Shown here: piece after piece, positions 17,612-30,585 of the stretch
How positions within the stretch are numbered: position 1 is the first letter of the stretch
Layout of the letters: the number at the start of each line of letters is the position of its first letter
NCBI GenBank assembly: GCA_030740295.1
Contig: JASLXP010000384.1
Coordinates: 1-35,460 of the forward strand
Direction: 5' to 3'
DNA length: 35,460 nt
Origin: Planctomycetota bacterium
GTDB taxonomy: Bacteria > Planctomycetota > PUPC01 > JACPCR01
The notes under the pieces: generated by a model
The model's database searches: none
Told to the model about the DNA's origin: nothing
What the model saw: only the letters and a program-made list of their open reading frames with translations
Position numbers and translations under genes: made by a program

Positions 17612-17671
17612 ACCGACAGCACGGGGAATGGGGGGTATCTCATATCCGTGCCAGGAACTGCTCTGCAAGAC

Positions 17672-20464
17672 ATGAACGGCCATCCCTCACAGAAAAGTCT
17701 CGATGTAATCATCCTTGGCGGGACGCCGGGAGGAATTTCCGCGGCCATTGCCGCGGCGCGGCTGGGAAGAACGGTCGCCATCATTGAATATCACGACCAC
17801 ATAGGCGGGATGACAGCCAGCGGCCTCGGTAAGAGCGATATCGAAAACCGAGAGATGATCGGTGGGATCTTTCATGAGTTCACTGAGCGCGTGCGACAGC
17901 ATTACGTTGAGCAATACGGCGATGATTCCGACAACGTTGAACTGTGCCGAGACGGTTATTATTCAGAGCCTTCGGTCGCGGAAGCAATCTTCGAGCAGAT
18001 GCTCGGAGAACAGCCAGGGATCACGGTAATGAAAGGCTGGCGGTTGCAGTCAGCTTCGTTGAAAGAAGATCGGCTGACGGCGATTGAAATCGTGAATCGC
18101 CGAACTGATGAAGCGTCTGCCATGCGGGGCGAAGTTTTCGTTGACGCCACCTATGAAGGTGATCTGTACGCGGCAGCCGGTGCCGAGTATCGGCTCGGAC
18201 GCGAATCACGCGAGCATTTCGGTGAGCCCCATGCAGGAGTGGTTTATTTCGATTACCAGAGCGGGAAGTTTCTGCCGGGAACAACCGGTGAAGCTGATGA
18301 GCGACTTCCCGCTTGCACTTACCGTCTTTGCCTGACGACCGATCCGGATAATTCGTTCGCTCTGGGTGAAGAGCCTCCAGATTACGCCCGCGAAAACTAC
18401 ATTGGCTACTTCGACGACCTCGCTGCAGGCCGATTAGGCGGGCCGAAAGTGTTGAAGCCGGGTCGCGGCTACAACCCCGCTCATTTCGACACTCTGGTGC
18501 GGGCACTGTCAGTGACTGACATTCCTAACAACAAGACCGACGTCAACATCAATCCGCGGCCACTCGCCTTCCCGTTTCCTGAAGAGAACCGCGGCTATGT
18601 CGAAGGCGATGATGCCGCACGCCAAAGCATCTGCGAACGGCATCGGCACCTTACGCTCGGCCTGCTCTGGTTTCTTCAGAACGACGAACAGATTCCATCG
18701 GAACACCGCGCCATTGCACGCCGGTACCACCTGCCTCTGGATGAGTTTGCCGACAACGGCCATTTCCCATTCCAACTTTATGTACGTGAGGCCCGCCGGT
18801 TGGTTGGCGAGTGCACACTCACTGAACAGGACATCACCCGAGACGGCGAGGACGGAGGGCCCCGCCAGCATCATGACACCATCGCCATCGGCGAGTTTCC
18901 GATCGACAGCTTCCCCTGCAGTAAACGGCAACCGGGAGACACGGTGGTTCTGGAGGGCTATCTTGGGATGCTCGATGCGATTACCAGGCCTTACGAAATC
19001 CCATATCGCATTATGTTGCCCACGCGCATCGACGGACTGCTCGTGCCCGTTGCCGCATCGACGACTCATGTCGCATATTCGTCCATTCGAATGGAACCTA
19101 CCTGGATGGCGCTTGGGCAGGCCGCGGGTACCGCCGCTCATCTTGCATTGAAACATGATGCCGTACCACGTCGCGTTCCAATCGCCGGACTGCGGCAATT
19201 ACTCTTTGAACATGGACAGGTGCTGAAGCACTCAGGAGATCAAATGATGAAATCTGGAATTTCGAAACACAAGGTTGCGGTTGGTAGTGCGCTGGCCGTC
19301 GGGCTGGCCTGTTCCGCGCCTGCAGCCGGTGAGCATCCGGACGCGCCTCATCCGGTGAAAAATCCCGACAGTTCACTCATGCTCGACCTGCCCGGCATCG
19401 GGAGGAAGCCCAATAAGATCAGTTTCAACAAACTGCCGCGGATGCCGGCTGAACACGCGGTCATCAGTGACGTGCGCGACCGCGGTGGCAAGTGGGTCCA
19501 TCAGCATGCTTACCTGGTACATCATGGGGGCCGGTATTGGGCGATGTGGAGCGACGGACCGGGTGTTCCTCAGGTCCCGGCCGCACGGCATCGCAATCGC
19601 GTTCCAGGACACGACCGGCCGGATACGCGTGTATCTTACGCCACAAGCAAGGACGGCTTGGAATGGAGCAAGGTCGGTGACATGTCCGGACCTCCCAGGA
19701 CGAAAGGCTTTGGCTGGATTTCCCGCGGATTCTGGAAACGCGACGGGGAGCTCCTGGCGCTGGCCAGCCATTTCAACGCGCCGGGGTATCCGGGGAAAGG
19801 GCTCAGCCTTGAATCGTTCCGCTGGGACAATACTGCAGACAAGTGGATCGCGCATGGCACTGTGCGTGACGATTCCATGAATAACTTTCCGCCGAAGATG
19901 CTGCCCAGCGGAAAATGGATGATGAGCCGCCGCGACCATCGCCGGCAGGTCTCCGTGATGGTCGGTGGTGTCGAGGCATTCAATCAATGGGAGATTCGGC
20001 CATTAGCCAACTACGAGGGCAAGCAGCAGCCGGAGGAGCCGTACTGGTATGTCCTGCCCGACGGAGAGAACCTGGTCGGGCTACTCCGGGACAACGGCGG
20101 CTCGAAGCGGTTGCTCCGTGTTTTCTCGACGGACAACGGCACGACCTGGAGCAAAATGGTTACGACCAACTTTCCTGACGCCACGAGTAAATTCTTCACA
20201 CTTCGGACGTCTCGCGGTTACTACGCGATGGTCTCAAACTCCAACCCTCGCCGTCGAGATCCTTTGACGCTGGCGATCAGTCCTGATGGCCTTGTCTACA
20301 CTCGCCTGTTTTACCTCGTTGGCGGACGTCACATCGATTACCCGCACATGATCGAACATGACGGCCATCTGATGATCATCTTCTCCGGCGCCAAGCAGAC
20401 TGTGGAAGTGCGAAAAGTGTCCCTGAAGACTATCGATGAACTGATCGCAAAGCCGAACCCCTGA
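17672..20464 (+). CDS. FAD-dependent oxidoreductase fused in frame to sialidase-like propeller
   Basis: One continuous frame codes for two proteins' worth of sequence. Residues about 1-520 are an FAD_oxidored-type flavoprotein: a dinucleotide-binding motif LGGTPGGISAA (about 15-25), an acidic residue ending the second strand (IIEYHDHIGG), and a C-terminal WMALGQAAGTAAHLAL motif that closes the FAD domain. At the ATG at 19244 a new start appears inside the frame, with a Shine-Dalgarno and a signal peptide, followed by a BNR/sialidase-like propeller (about 600-925; VSYATSKDGLEWSKVG, RVFSTDNGTTWSKMV). The flavoprotein half would act in the cytoplasm and the propeller outside it. The stop expected after the FAD domain is missing. 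Start: the ATG at 17672 is chosen; a GTG at 17648 is also possible and neither has a good Shine-Dalgarno. The sum may be a real fusion or two genes merged by a small indel or read error. Confidence 0.75.
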   Translation: MNGHPSQKSLDVIILGGTPGGISAAIAAARLGRTVAIIEYHDHIGGMTASGLGKSDIENREMIGGIFHEFTERVRQHYVEQYGDDSDNVELCRDGYYSEPSVAEAIFEQMLGEQPGITVMKGWRLQSASLKEDRLTAIEIVNRRTDEASAMRGEVFVDATYEGDLYAAAGAEYRLGRESREHFGEPHAGVVYFDYQSGKFLPGTTGEADERLPACTYRLCLTTDPDNSFALGEEPPDYARENYIGYFDDLAAGRLGGPKVLKPGRGYNPAHFDTLVRALSVTDIPNNKTDVNINPRPLAFPFPEENRGYVEGDDAARQSICERHRHLTLGLLWFLQNDEQIPSEHRAIARRYHLPLDEFADNGHFPFQLYVREARRLVGECTLTEQDITRDGEDGGPRQHHDTIAIGEFPIDSFPCSKRQPGDTVVLEGYLGMLDAITRPYEIPYRIMLPTRIDGLLVPVAASTTHVAYSSIRMEPTWMALGQAAGTAAHLALKHDAVPRRVPIAGLRQLLFEHGQVLKHSGDQMMKSGISKHKVAVGSALAVGLACSAPAAGEHPDAPHPVKNPDSSLMLDLPGIGRKPNKISFNKLPRMPAEHAVISDVRDRGGKWVHQHAYLVHHGGRYWAMWSDGPGVPQVPAARHRNRVPGHDRPDTRVSYATSKDGLEWSKVGDMSGPPRTKGFGWISRGFWKRDGELLALASHFNAPGYPGKGLSLESFRWDNTADKWIAHGTVRDDSMNNFPPKMLPSGKWMMSRRDHRRQVSVMVGGVEAFNQWEIRPLANYEGKQQPEEPYWYVLPDGENLVGLLRDNGGSKRLLRVFSTDNGTTWSKMVTTNFPDATSKFFTLRTSRGYYAMVSNSNPRRRDPLTLAISPDGLVYTRLFYLVGGRHIDYPHMIEHDGHLMIIFSGAKQTVEVRKVSLKTIDELIAKPNP
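19234..19249 (+). promoter_or_regulatory. Internal Shine-Dalgarno and start inside the fused frame
   Basis: AGGAG at 19234-19238 lies 5 bases before two ATG codons (19244 and 19247). Translation from there gives a signal peptide (basic MMKSGISKHK, then hydrophobic VAVGSALAVGLACSAPAA) and then the sialidase-like propeller, a complete secreted protein of about 405 residues. TGA codons overlap the ATGs in the +1 frame, as in a normal ATGA gene junction. So the second protein can be made on its own whether or not the upstream frame is fused. Confidence 0.7.
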
Positions 20465-23350: not shown

Positions 23351-25417
23351 ATGACGAAGCAAAGCAAGAAGATTCTGGTGACCATTCTGAAGCTGGTAAT
23401 GGCGTTCGGGGTGCTGCTGTTTCTCTACCACAAAAACGATATTGATGTGGCTCAGCTTCGCGAGGTTCTCGCCACAGGATGGCGATGGATCGCAATTGCC
23501 GCGGCCCTGTTTCTGATCACGATCGTCATGACCGGTTTTCGCTGGCAACTGCTGCTCAAGGCGCAGGGGATCGATATGCCGGTCGTGCTTGCGATCCGGC
23601 TGACACTGGTCGGGCAGGCATTCAGTATGATCTTCCCGGGTGCGACCGGCGGGGATCTGGTGAAGGCATATTACGTCTACAAGATGGGAAAAAAACGGGC
23701 GGCCGCGGTGACCACGATTCTCGTCGACAGGGTGATAGGGCTTTACTGCATGATTGGAATTGCCTCGGTGATGGTGCTCCTCGAATCCGGGCGGCTTTGG
23801 GCCTTGCCAAAGGCGCAGCCGCTGGTCTATTCGATCCCGCTGGTCTTTCTCGTTATCACGATCGTGTTGGGTTCATTCTTCACCAGTACGATTAGGAAGG
23901 TCTTCACCGCGGCGGGCGAGAGCGGGCCGCCGGTGTTGATGGGTGAACAGCTTTACAAGGTCTATACCGCCGTCGATCAATATCGAGAATCCCGCAAAAC
24001 GATCGTTCACGCCATACTCATTTCTGTTATCTCCATCAGCAATATCTGCGTCATGTTCGTATGCCTGGGAAAGGCGCTGGAGGTCGAGGGGATGTCGCTG
24101 CCGGATTATTTTCTGGTGACACCAACGAGCATGGTGATTACGGGGCTGCCGATATTCCCGGGCGGGCTTGGGCTTGGCGAGTTTGCCATGGGCGAGCTCT
24201 TTGAGATGGTGGCGAACAGCCTTTCCGGCCAGGAGGCGATGCTGCTCTGGCGAATCGTCATCATTTTCTGGAGCGTGATCGGTCTGGCTGTCTATCTGAC
24301 GCTCAGGTCGGATGTGCGCCAGGGCGAGATGGAGGACGAGGCCGAAGAGCGTGTCCGAGCGGTGTTCGATTACAACGGTACCGAGCTTCACGATTACTCG
24401 GGCGCGATCCATTTTCACACGACGTATTCCGACGGCTCTGAGTCCATTGAAAAAGTGATCAGCCAGGGAAGCGACAGCGGTCTCGATTTCATGATTGTCA
24501 CCGATCACGACACCTTGGAATCGAGGGACGATGGTCATCAGGGATGGAAGGGCGGGGTCCTGTCCATCGTCGGTGTTGAGATTTCGCCGCCGTCCGGACA
24601 TTGTCTCGCCGTTCGGCTGAAAGACTGTGAAGGGATGGTTGAGCTGACCCCGCCGGAATATCTTTCGAAGGTCCGCGAGCAGGACGGGCTCTCATTTGTC
24701 GCGCACCCAACTGCGCCGCAGCGGCCGGAATTCTATTATCAGATCGAAGGCTGGAAATACTGGGACAATGAGGATTTCAACGGCCTGGAGATCTGGACTT
24801 ACATGCACGACTGGTTAAAGAACGCGAGCCGAATGTCGCTGCTGCATCATCTTTTTAATCCCAGCCGCGGAATTGAAGGTCCTGACCCGGAGCTCCTCGA
24901 ACATTGGGATCGTCTTGGCCAGGCGCGGCGCGTCATCGGCATTGGAGGCATCGACAATCACGCCCGGAATCTGCCATTCAGGCGTCTGCCGATTTACATC
25001 TTCAAAGTGCTTCCGTTCCGATTTGCGTTCAAGACCGTCCGTACACACGTGCTGGCCCAGCCTTTTGAATCCGACGATGAGGCTGACATTAACCACGTTT
25101 GCGATGCGCTGCAGAACGGTCACTGCTATATCGCTTACGATTACCTTGCCGTTGCCACCGGTTTCAACTTTTCCGCCAGGCAGGGCGACAGGACGGTTTT
25201 GATGGGGGATGAAGTGACATTGAGTGGAGGGATGACCCTCGAAGTGCGCAGCCCGCAGAAGGCGGATATCGCGCTGCTGAGAAATGGTGAGGCCATCCAG
25301 ACTGAATCGTCGACAGGATTCGGCTTTGACATAGATGAGCCCGGCGTCTACAGAATTGAGGCCAGACTGAATGACACCCCTTGGGTTTTTACCAACCCGA
25401 TCTATGTTCGTTCCTGA
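23351..25417 (+). CDS. Flippase-like membrane protein (LPG synthase TM type) fused to PHP phosphoesterase
   Basis: The 688-residue protein has two parts. Residues 1-320 are an integral membrane domain of the UPF0104/LPG_synthase_TM family: several helices, the motif PGATGGDLVKAYY (about 96-108) and IFPGGLGLGEFAMGEL (about 268-283), both typical of that family (AglD, MprF transmembrane region, flippase-like proteins). Residues about 350-600 are a PHP metal-dependent phosphoesterase domain with all main metal ligands: His 354 and His 356 (HFHTTYSDGS), Asp 361, Asp 385-His 386-Asp 387 (VTDHDT), Glu 410, His 452, and Asp 535/His 537 (GGIDNH). The last 85 residues are a beta-sandwich-like extension. 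Short acidic linker at about 322-345. A lipid-linked or phospholipid phosphate substrate is an attractive inference. The RadC gene follows closely. Confidence 0.85.
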   Translation: MTKQSKKILVTILKLVMAFGVLLFLYHKNDIDVAQLREVLATGWRWIAIAAALFLITIVMTGFRWQLLLKAQGIDMPVVLAIRLTLVGQAFSMIFPGATGGDLVKAYYVYKMGKKRAAAVTTILVDRVIGLYCMIGIASVMVLLESGRLWALPKAQPLVYSIPLVFLVITIVLGSFFTSTIRKVFTAAGESGPPVLMGEQLYKVYTAVDQYRESRKTIVHAILISVISISNICVMFVCLGKALEVEGMSLPDYFLVTPTSMVITGLPIFPGGLGLGEFAMGELFEMVANSLSGQEAMLLWRIVIIFWSVIGLAVYLTLRSDVRQGEMEDEAEERVRAVFDYNGTELHDYSGAIHFHTTYSDGSESIEKVISQGSDSGLDFMIVTDHDTLESRDDGHQGWKGGVLSIVGVEISPPSGHCLAVRLKDCEGMVELTPPEYLSKVREQDGLSFVAHPTAPQRPEFYYQIEGWKYWDNEDFNGLEIWTYMHDWLKNASRMSLLHHLFNPSRGIEGPDPELLEHWDRLGQARRVIGIGGIDNHARNLPFRRLPIYIFKVLPFRFAFKTVRTHVLAQPFESDDEADINHVCDALQNGHCYIAYDYLAVATGFNFSARQGDRTVLMGDEVTLSGGMTLEVRSPQKADIALLRNGEAIQTESSTGFGFDIDEPGVYRIEARLNDTPWVFTNPIYVRS

Positions 25418-25434
25418 CGATTCTGAGGCGGAGC

Positions 25435-26475
25435 GTGGCTAAGAAAGGAACCGCAATTTATCAACAGGCTCGCGACGCCCTCGAGGGGCAGGCCGCGAGA
25501 AACGGCGCAGACCTATCGGTGCTGTTGGCCGAACACGAGGATTCGAGCTACAGGACCGGACTGAGGTTCCTGCATCGTCTGGGCGCGATCCATGGAAAGC
25601 GGAAGGAGCTGTTCGAAAAGCGCGTCGGGCAGATTTTTCGGCATACGCAGGAAGAGTTCGGCGTCACCGAGACTGAGGTGCGGGGCGTTCTTGGATTGTT
25701 CGGTAGCGATGCCGCGGAGATCGGTATCTGCAGTAAGGAGCCGGTCTGCGAGAAGTGTCCGTTTGAGTCCGAGTGCCAATGGGCGAAGAAGAATCCCCGG
25801 ATTCTGGATATGCCGTTAAGCGAACGCCCGCGGGAGCGTCTCATCAACGAAGGCGCGGATTCCCTCAGCGATGCGGACCTGATTGGTATCATCATTCGAG
25901 ACGGCCAGCCGAATCGCACCGCGGTGGACCTGGCGAGGCTGCTGATCAGCCGGCACGGCAGTCTGAGAAGCCTGGCGAATAAGACGATTAAGGAACTGTG
26001 CGAGATTCCCGGCATCGGCGAGGCCAAGGCGGCACAGATCAAGGCGGCGCTTACCGTCGGTATTCGGATGTCTGAAGAGGCCGGGCTGCGGCGGGGCGAC
26101 CCTCTAAGCAGCAGCGAGTCGGTCTTCAAGAGATATCACGCGAAGCTCAGAGACAAGCAGCACGAAGAGTTTCACACCATCCTTCTGGATCGTAGACACC
26201 GGGTCATTCAGGACGTGCTTGTTTCGGTCGGCTCGCTCACGGCCTCGATCGTTCATCCGCGGGAGGTGTTCAATCATGCGGTGAGTCACTCCGCGGCCGC
26301 GATAGTCTGCGTTCACAACCATCCTTCGGGCGACCCCGGTCCAAGCAAGGAAGATCTGGAGATCACAAAACGTTTGAAGGAGGCGGGCCGAACTCTGGGT
26401 ATACCTCTCTTAGACCACCTGATTATCGGGGACCAGCGCTATTACAGTTTTGCTGATGAGGGCCTTCTAAAGTAG
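25435..26475 (+). CDS. radC: RadC-family protein with endonuclease III-like Fe-S N-terminal domain
   Basis: The start is the GTG at 25435, preceded by GAGG/GGAG (about 25424-25433) and 17 bases after the flippase-PHP stop; the frame is open to 25381, but a start there would overlap that gene. The last 220 residues are a classic RadC: RPRERLINEGADSLSDADL, the HhH motif IPGIGEAKAAQIKAAL (191-206), and the MPN/JAMM metal motif H294-x-H296-x7-S304-x2-D307 with Glu 244/245. The first 120 residues are not usual for RadC. They carry four cysteines, C99-x5-C105-x2-C108-x5-C114, close to the C-x6-C-x2-C-x5-C loop of endonuclease III, and RTGLRFLHRLG (40-50) resembles the segment that precedes that loop there. 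The HhH catalytic half and the catalytic Asp are missing. Confidence 0.85.
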   Translation: MAKKGTAIYQQARDALEGQAARNGADLSVLLAEHEDSSYRTGLRFLHRLGAIHGKRKELFEKRVGQIFRHTQEEFGVTETEVRGVLGLFGSDAAEIGICSKEPVCEKCPFESECQWAKKNPRILDMPLSERPRERLINEGADSLSDADLIGIIIRDGQPNRTAVDLARLLISRHGSLRSLANKTIKELCEIPGIGEAKAAQIKAALTVGIRMSEEAGLRRGDPLSSSESVFKRYHAKLRDKQHEEFHTILLDRRHRVIQDVLVSVGSLTASIVHPREVFNHAVSHSAAAIVCVHNHPSGDPGPSKEDLEITKRLKEAGRTLGIPLLDHLIIGDQRYYSFADEGLLK

Positions 26476-29196: not shown

Positions 29197-30585
29197 TCAG
29201 TCCTCTTCTTCTTTCTCTTCTCCTTCTTTTTCCCGTTCGTGTTTTTCCTGTTTCTCTTTGTGTTCCCTTTCTTTTTCTCTTTCTCTCTCTCTTTCTCTCT
29301 CTTTTTCCCGTTCGTGTTTTTCCTGTTTCTCTTTGTGTTCTCTTTCTCTCTCTTTTTCCCGCTCGTGTTTTTCCTGTTTCTCTTTGTGTTCTCTTTCTCT
29401 CTCTCTTTCCTGTTTCTCTCTGTGTTCCTTCTCTCTTTCCTTTTCTCTCTCCCGCTCTCTCTCTTTTTCTCGTTCATGCCGGTCTTGTTTCTCCCTCTGC
29501 TCCTTTTCTCTTTCTCTTTCCCGCTCCCTTTCTCTCTCCCGCTCTCTGTTATCGCCGTCTCCGTGTTCTCTTTCTCTCTCCCGCTCCCTTTCTCTTTCCC
29601 GCTCTCTGTCATTGCCGTCTCCGTGCTCCCTTTCTCTTTCCCGCTCTCTTTCTCTTTCCCGCTCTCTGTCATCGCCGTCTCCGTGTTCTCTTTCTCGTTC
29701 CCTCTCTCTTTCTCTCTCCCGCTCACTGCCACTGCCGCCTCCGTGCTCCCTCTCTCGTTCCCGTTCTTCGTCTCCATGCTCCCGCTCTCTGTCATCGCCG
29801 TCACCATGCTCACCGTCACCTTCCTCGCCGTGTTCTTCCATACCTCCGCCGTGATCTCCACCTTCGTGGTCTCCTCCGTCGCGATCACCAGGGAAATGGC
29901 CCGGACCTCCATCTTGGTCCAGTGGTGGTGTGTCGCCGTCTCCCTCGCCTTCATCATCGACAGGTATGTTCGTCTCGAAGTAGTCCCGGCTTGTGAGCTC
30001 CTCGGTATAGACCTCAGGCTTCACCAAATCCACGTGCCAGTCTGCATACAACACATTGACCCCATCGAGGCCATGGTTGTCCAGGTTATCCATCGTGCCG
30101 ATCTGGCCTGTCTCCACTTGGTCTTGGACCATGGGAATCTGAGAAGCGGTGTTGGAAGTGTTGTTCGCGTCCTTATGGACAAAGCCGTCCAGGTAGGTGA
30201 AATGAGGGCGGTATTCATAGCTCATGCCGCCGGTGTTAGTGCCTCCACTGTTGTTCGTAAGATCTGCCGCGGCGGTGACTGATACTCCGGAACTTGGGCA
30301 TTCAAAGACCCTGACTTCATCCACGAATTTTGGGTACAGGGCTGAAAGGTCGTCCTCAAAGGGCGGAAGGCCAGCCTGCGGGTATTGTCCCATGTACTCG
30401 TTGGAGTAGAGCTGCATCGCCACGCCAATCTGACGCAGGTTCTGCTTGCACTTGACCATGCGCGCCTTTTCCCGAGCTGACTTCAGACTGGGGAGCAGAA
30501 GGGAAGCGAGAATAGCAATGATGGCGATAACCATCATGAGCTCGATCAGCGTGAAAGCACTGCTTTGGCGAATTCTCCGATACAT
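29197..30585 (-). CDS. Prepilin-type (H-X9-DG-like) protein with long Arg/Glu/Lys repeat tail
   Basis: The 462-residue protein starts at the ATG at 30585, with AAGGAG 10 bases upstream. Residues 11-35 are a type IV prepilin N-terminus ([25 protein letters not shown]), with the conserved Glu at +5 and the processing site at Ala 10/Phe 11. The middle (to about 200) is the pseudopilin globular domain, with a degenerate H-X9-DG motif at 171-184 (H-x10-DW, then HV). From residue 210 the chain becomes Asp/Gly/Glu rich (to about 262), and from about 264 to 462 it is almost only Glu, Arg, Lys, His and Gln, in ER/K repeats. Such ER/K stretches are known to form single alpha-helices or coiled coils. 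H-X9-DG pseudopilins usually have no such tail. Confidence 0.85.
29200..29796. repeat. Polypurine/polypyrimidine repeat coding the ER/K tail
   Basis: The plus strand is C/T-rich over about 600 bp. Two repeat types are visible: a 60-bp unit coding EHGDG(D/N)(D/N)-(RE)n, about 4-5 copies at 29535-29796, and a 34-base block coding roughly [12 protein letters not shown] at about 29232, 29308 and 29358. The unit copies differ by point changes. Confidence 0.75.

Follow-up and report, generated by a model that had tools for sequence, protein, structure and literature searches.

A rare gene fusion joining an MprF-type flippase domain to a CehA/McbA-type PHP hydrolase in a Planctomycetota bacterium, and its two-gene counterparts

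Analysis of a 35,460-nucleotide stretch of DNA from a Planctomycetota bacterium (contig JASLXP010000384.1 of assembly GCA_030740295.1, positions 1 to 35,460 of the forward strand; the whole stretch is called the window below) revealed a single uninterrupted frame of 688 codons at 23351-25417 on the plus strand, running from an ATG at 23351 to a TGA at 25415-25417. The deduced protein of 688 residues is predicted to comprise an LPG_synthase_TM or MprF-type flippase (scramblase) membrane domain at residues 1-320 (23351..24310, +), a variable linker, predicted to be cytoplasmic, at residues 321-345 (24311..24385, +), and a CehA/McbA-type PHP metallohydrolase with a beta-sandwich at residues 346-688. 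Within the latter, the PHP domain, with its motif residues conserved, occupies residues 346-600 (24386..25150, +) and the C-terminal beta-sandwich, which belongs to the CehA/McbA model, occupies residues 601-688 (25151..25414, +).

A first-pass annotation of this DNA, made from the letters alone, had described a flippase-like domain fused to a PHP domain, and this description was borne out; the frame is open across 24300-24400, where no stop was found. An assembly or frameshift artefact joining two genes would fit the occurrence of the two domains in separate proteins in most relatives examined, but the same one-frame fusion is shared by six further, distinct proteins drawn from several sources (48-81% identical to that of the window), no stop intervenes, and the ratio of nonsynonymous to synonymous change (dN/dS) is low on either side of the join. 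The artefact is refuted by the existence of these independent fused copies, and its probability is negligible. The gene fusion is confirmed as real; it is rare and has two-gene counterparts.

The membrane half matched PF03706 (LPG_synthase_TM, Pfam) over residues 12-308 (profile 2-299 of 302; 110.3 bits against a cut-off of 33.4) and TIGR00374 (NCBIfam) over residues 36-316 (66.2 bits against 43.2), and its predicted fold was that of the MprF flippase domain. In an alignment of 18 rows, eleven flippase residues (R64, W65, G101, D102, D126, R127, G130, P267, G272, G274 and E277) were invariant, in agreement with the earlier statement that the membrane-family motifs are intact. Model NF053789, for the GpgF flippase of glucosaminyl-phosphatidylglycerol (GlcN-PG), scored 12.4 bits against a cut-off of 320, and no match to LPG_synthase_C (PF09924) was found in the fusion protein. 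As predicted from profiles and model, the N-terminal half is an MprF-type domain.

For the hydrolase half, NF038032 (CehA/McbA metallohydrolase) was the sole NCBIfam model to pass its cut-off, matching residues 349-686 (profile 3-314 of 315; 102.7 bits against 80); some paired relatives fell under that cut-off (L059, 72.9 bits; L054, 65.4 bits). PF02811 (PHP) scored 22.6 bits in the window protein, under the gathering cut-off of 26.4, and a precomputed PF02811 annotation was present on the fused relatives P0003, P0004 and P0006. Since PF02811 alone is sub-threshold and NF038032 passes, CehA/McbA-type PHP is the more precise name for the C-terminal half, which the same kinds of prediction identify as a PHP domain. 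Ten residues (His354, His356, Asp361, Asp385, His386, Glu410, His417, His452, Asp535 and His537) were invariant in all seven fused proteins and across a 51-row alignment including unfused relatives, and the PHP-motif residues are present, in line with the earlier claim of a full set of metal ligands. The window residues H354 to H537 match HxH, DH, E...H, H, DxH, which we take to be the PHP metal-site pattern. Among solved PHP proteins, 3e38 (BVU_3505), whose chain 3e38_B aligned with residues 337-684, and 2anu (TM0559) aligned no membrane domain, and both are titled only as predicted phosphoesterases.

The first-pass annotation had also proposed that a phosphate is removed from, or added to, the substrate. 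A genuine phosphatase or phosphodiesterase role for the PHP domain, with phosphate taken off a lipid-linked phosphate, is, in our judgement, unlikely. Phosphoesterase is the general label for the wider PHP superfamily, and the PHP fold includes phosphoesterases; the structural neighbours of the hydrolase half include RNase AM (7ug9) and an AMP- and phosphate-bound structure, 2yb1, and cyclic-phosphate and nucleoside bisphosphatase models gave weak partial matches at residues 353-412 only. However, these matches lie far under their cut-offs, and the one model over its cut-off is named for CehA and McbA, which are carbamate esterases whose His residues are required for activity, according to the available text of PMC8292978. 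Carbamate-ester cleavage is the sole activity found for the subfamily in the literature searched, within the same portion of that source, and the proposed phosphate chemistry is not upheld.

In the structure model, strands at residues 606-687, within the beta-sandwich, had a high predicted local distance difference test score (pLDDT), and residues 324-332 of the linker, whose length differs among the fused relatives, had a pLDDT below 50. The VIA-align table held no PDB chain spanning both domains, which carries no evidential weight. The charge distribution of the fusion protein points to a cytoplasmic hydrolase half.

A protein search, which like the one after it scored about 8,000 candidates, listed 21 proteins at E <=1e-3, of which seven were full-length fusions, namely the window's own (P0001, 100% identity) and P0002 (81%), P0003 (54%), P0004 (49%), P0005 (49%), P0006 (48%) and P0007 (49%). 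A second search with a profile of the fusion set listed 20 proteins and no additional fusion among them. On genome contigs, relatives were encoded at 15 loci, with one-frame fusions only at L001 (Planctomycetota; 81% identical and equal in length to that of the window) and L002 (49%). The search across genomes for the joint architecture, suggested earlier, found the fusion in 2 of 392 sampled Planctomycetota genomes, with the best two candidates scored per genome. The phylogenetic trees, which came from quick searches and have long branches, showed that the fused set (seven rows, L001 and L002 replacing P0002 and P0007) formed one clade for the hydrolase and one for the flippase, with Shimodaira-Hasegawa-like approximate likelihood ratio support (SH-aLRT) of 100 in each. 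Since the fused proteins form one clade, the fusion most simply had a single origin. A viral origin was considered and rejected: 30 viral-contig stretches fit a pattern, and tblastn found a relative encoded in none of the 30.

Comparison of the window with L001 gave dN 0.116 and dS 0.85 for the flippase, 0.088 and 1.24 for the PHP domain, 0.129 and 0.96 for the beta-sandwich, and 0.316 and 1.44 for the linker, which is 64% identical between the two (Nei-Gojobori method, custom script; the dS values are high). Purifying selection acts on both halves. The earlier view that both halves look active therefore stands as regards their intactness and constraint, activity itself being a prediction from sequence.

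Separate genes, with the flippase first, on the same strand and with 35-85 bases between the domain matches, were found at L006, L011, L015, L052, L054 and L059, and L007 carries a flippase fragment (16 bits) at the contig edge. In this count, after removal of repeat fetches and of matches under 150 bits, three of 35 hydrolase loci were fused; a few of the 35 have little upstream sequence. The two-gene relatives are distant, the hydrolase halves of the four aligned being 36-40% identical to that of the window. Two-gene versions in related genomes, foreseen as a possible objection to the fusion, thus occur only at that distance, the close relative L001 being fused.

A survey with the hydrolase only gave a match in 39 of 392 Planctomycetota genomes (E <=1e-40; 40 matches; up to five candidates scored per genome). 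Thirty survey loci were examined with flanks of up to 1.5 kb: two were fused, five had a flippase match directly upstream (L091, L093, L094, L099 and L032) and two had part of a flippase where the contig ends (L095, 16 bits; L110, 60 bits). All 19 genomes tested contained PF03706, at between one and six match rows per genome, some rows being pieces of a single gene; direct adjacency of flippase and hydrolase by chance is therefore put, as a rough estimate with gene numbers not counted, at about one per thousand loci.

For the flippases, the approximately unbiased (AU) test rejected a common origin of every flippase-hydrolase pair (p 3.3e-4; 13 rows against 22); it used 35 of 41 rows and left out L080, L081, L045, L086, P0147 and P0153. 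With L006 dropped from the paired group p was 5e-8, and a clade uniting the fused set, L052, L059 and L015 was not rejected (p 0.16). On the hydrolase tree the adjacent group needs four changes, two of them forced by starred branches. Since the paired flippases do not form one clade, pairing probably arose more than once, and at least two of the pairings appear independent, barring replacement of flippases in place.

By analogy with known systems, the fusion protein may be a two-part membrane enzyme, in which a lipid mover is joined to a cytoplasmic metal-dependent hydrolase trimming a lipid or lipid-linked head group; of the readings considered this is the one we favour, though we hold the case for it to be evenly poised. 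Judging from MprF, the N-terminal domain would carry lipids from one leaflet of the inner membrane to the other. The PHP domain, kept in the cytoplasm by the short linker as the charge distribution suggests, would act at the inner leaflet and cut an ester-, carbamate- or amide-like group, less likely a phosphate, off a lipid's head group or that of a lipid-linked compound. The fusion would keep hydrolysis and transbilayer movement together, a trimmed lipid being passed outward or an incoming lipid being trimmed on arrival, and the protein would work like MprF with a hydrolase in place of the aminoacyl-transferase; we infer both the substrate and the direction of transport. The earlier proposal of action at the membrane on a lipid-linked compound is thus retained as plausible, apart from its phosphate chemistry. 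According to the portions of the sources available, MprF of Pseudomonas aeruginosa acts in vitro as a scramblase for many lipids, fusions of its transport domain to lipid-modifying enzymes are described as frequent (PMC11980842), and PF03706 domains are predicted flippases occurring alone or in two-domain proteins (PMC5898192). An aminoacyl-phosphatidylglycerol hydrolase, in which the PHP domain undoes MprF-type aminoacylation, was also considered and is disfavoured: PF09924 was found in none of nine genomes tested with the fusion or the gene pair (the control was positive in 7 of 14 well-known genomes), and this absence of LPG_synthase_C from all nine makes a link to MprF-type aminoacyl-phosphatidylglycerol unlikely.

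MprF, the lysyl/alanyl-phosphatidylglycerol synthase-flippase, carries the transferase LPG_synthase_C, whereas the window protein has a PHP hydrolase instead. AglD and other PF03706 fusions, with glycosyltransferases and O-antigen ligases, resemble the window protein in joining a flippase-like domain to a lipid-modifying enzyme (PMC5898192, PMC11980842, in their available portions), but AglD-type fusions carry a transferase or ligase and the window protein carries a hydrolase, at its C-terminus. The GpgSDF system for GlcN-PG in P. aeruginosa is like the hydrolase-flippase pairing in that the deacetylase GpgD and the YbhN/PF03706-type predicted flippase GpgF, the activity of which is described as not yet verified, lie in one predicted operon together with the enzyme making N-acetylglucosaminyl-phosphatidylglycerol (GlcNAc-PG), as the accessible text of PMC12713373 has it. 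GpgD is however a COG3233 protein and not a PHP protein, and GpgD and GpgF are separate genes, unlike the fusion of the window. The hydrolase half passes the NF038032 model of the carbamate hydrolases CehA and McbA; to our knowledge neither of these has an MprF-type domain.

No description of a PF03706-type domain with a PHP hydrolase was found in the literature searched, and a preprint outside it that catalogues such fusions (doi 10.1101/2022.03.11.483950) may mention one; the lipocone paper, in the part available, brings up a PHP protein in one context and flippases in another (PMC12419801). Because PF03706 fusions to other lipid-modifying enzymes have already been described, the design of a lipid-modifying enzyme with a lipid mover is known, and only the hydrolase partner appears new within the literature searched. 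MprF-type transport domains have been proposed to serve generally as lipid movers that take their role from the enzyme fused to them (PMC11980842, in part). The hydrolase partner would, if the reading of a lipid-trimming enzyme is right, extend by a removal step a design that the same source describes with transferases and ligases. It would also tie to the membrane, in a native role, a hydrolase family best known for the breakdown of carbamate pesticides. The recurrent pairing offers a defined set of genes for experiments in Planctomycetota and anammox-like bacteria, which have unusual membranes.

Several observations weigh against a lipid-trimming enzyme. No substrate, operon partner or assay points to a lipid, and the structure model (predicted template modelling score, pTM, 0.66, with a low-confidence linker) gave no support for the contact between domains that structure prediction had been suggested to check. 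No flippase lay beside the hydrolase in 21 of the 30 survey loci (L043 begins at a contig edge and is uninformative), and in the 17 non-fusion genomes of the 19 tested the PF03706 matches lay on contigs other than that of the hydrolase. Poribacteria and Brocadiales-like loci (our label for loci grouping with Scalindua and Brocadiaceae) have the hydrolase without a linked flippase. The closest flippases outside the fusion clade whose surroundings were read (L071-L079, 178-231 bits; L078 starts at a contig edge) had no adjoining hydrolase. Genomes G400 and G398 (L080 and L081) keep the flippase with the gene order of L006 but have no hydrolase before ValS, nor was any such hydrolase found elsewhere in either genome at E <=1e-12. 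The repeated pairing, finally, could reflect one old pairing with later flippase replacement.

G400 and G398 share a five-genome phylum with G003, which holds L006. Between the flippase and ValS, the hydrolase gene is present in L006 (9998-11985) and absent from L080 (4693-5661) and L081 (2606-3574), a difference that is a hydrolase gain or loss within one small phylum.

Rather unlikely, in our estimate, is a hydrolase acting on a soluble metabolite, with the membrane domain as an anchor or engaged in unrelated housekeeping lipid scrambling. The occurrence of flippases without the hydrolase and of hydrolases without a linked flippase would agree with this, and in Poribacteria the MetK/AhcY (by eye) and PfkB neighbours of the hydrolase suggest small-molecule metabolism; yet the hydrolase is paired with flippases of more than one clade, both halves are constrained, and a mere anchor would need no complete flippase with conserved motifs.

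A gene for a PF06050 protein (2-hydroxyglutaryl-CoA dehydratase D-component) was found directly upstream of the flippase-hydrolase genes in G004, G005, G087 and G132; in G047, G315 and G213 it is followed by the flippase only, and at seven Brocadiales-like loci (L003, L004, L005, L013, L046, L047 and L048) by the hydrolase only. In G010 it precedes the flippase start on one contig, and the hydrolase with the flippase end begins another; we infer that the two contigs join. These arrangements speak for the flippase, the hydrolase and the PF06050 protein as parts of one lipid or cofactor pathway, of which the fusion would be a reduced two-function form, a possibility that overlaps with the lipid-trimming enzyme and that we entertain tentatively. 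Against it, no PF06050 ortholog was found in 10 of 24 genomes tested, including G001 and G002, which carry the fusion, and G003 and G098, which carry the gene pair, the gene lies on another contig in G391 and G277, and the closest named model of the PF06050 protein, a double-cubane anaerobic reductase, is matched weakly (38 bits against a cut-off of 350). With similar reserve, the three might be a three-gene module, recurrent and undescribed, that serves envelope chemistry in Planctomycetota: a lipid or lipid-linked compound would be made by reduction or dehydration, moved across the membrane and trimmed by hydrolysis, and the window protein would be the fused two-function form.

Downstream of the fusion lies a RadC gene (PF04002, 155.7 bits), a linked neighbour whose longest frame spans 25381..26475 on the plus strand; a GTG at 25435, 17 bases past the fusion stop, is a likelier start than 25381. 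In the window and in L001 the gene after the fusion is RadC, and the unfused hydrolase is likewise succeeded by RadC at L004, L005, L046, L047 and L048, five of the seven Brocadiales-like loci. The longest frame of the window RadC carries an N-terminal extension of about 140 residues with Cys-x5-Cys-x2-Cys-x5-Cys, presumably close to the iron-sulfur (Fe-S) loop of EndoIII/MutY, and the NCBIfam mutY model gave a weak hit at 115-148 (E 0.006); the L001 RadC has an extension of similar length. A fusion of an Fe-S loop with RadC is possible.

In Poribacteria and relatives the unfused hydrolase is preceded by MetK and AhcY genes, identified by eye (L008, 6376-11077; L012, 9115-11092; L084, 5687-10456), and in L008 and L012 also by a PfkB kinase (Pfam); a link of this hydrolase to S-adenosylmethionine recycling is possible. 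Elsewhere in the window, FAD_oxidored and BNR_2 domains share a single frame at 17648-20464 (+), either a real fusion or two genes read through, and the frame at 29197-30585 (-) opens with what by eye looks like a prepilin start and continues as a long low-complexity tail rich in Glu and Arg.
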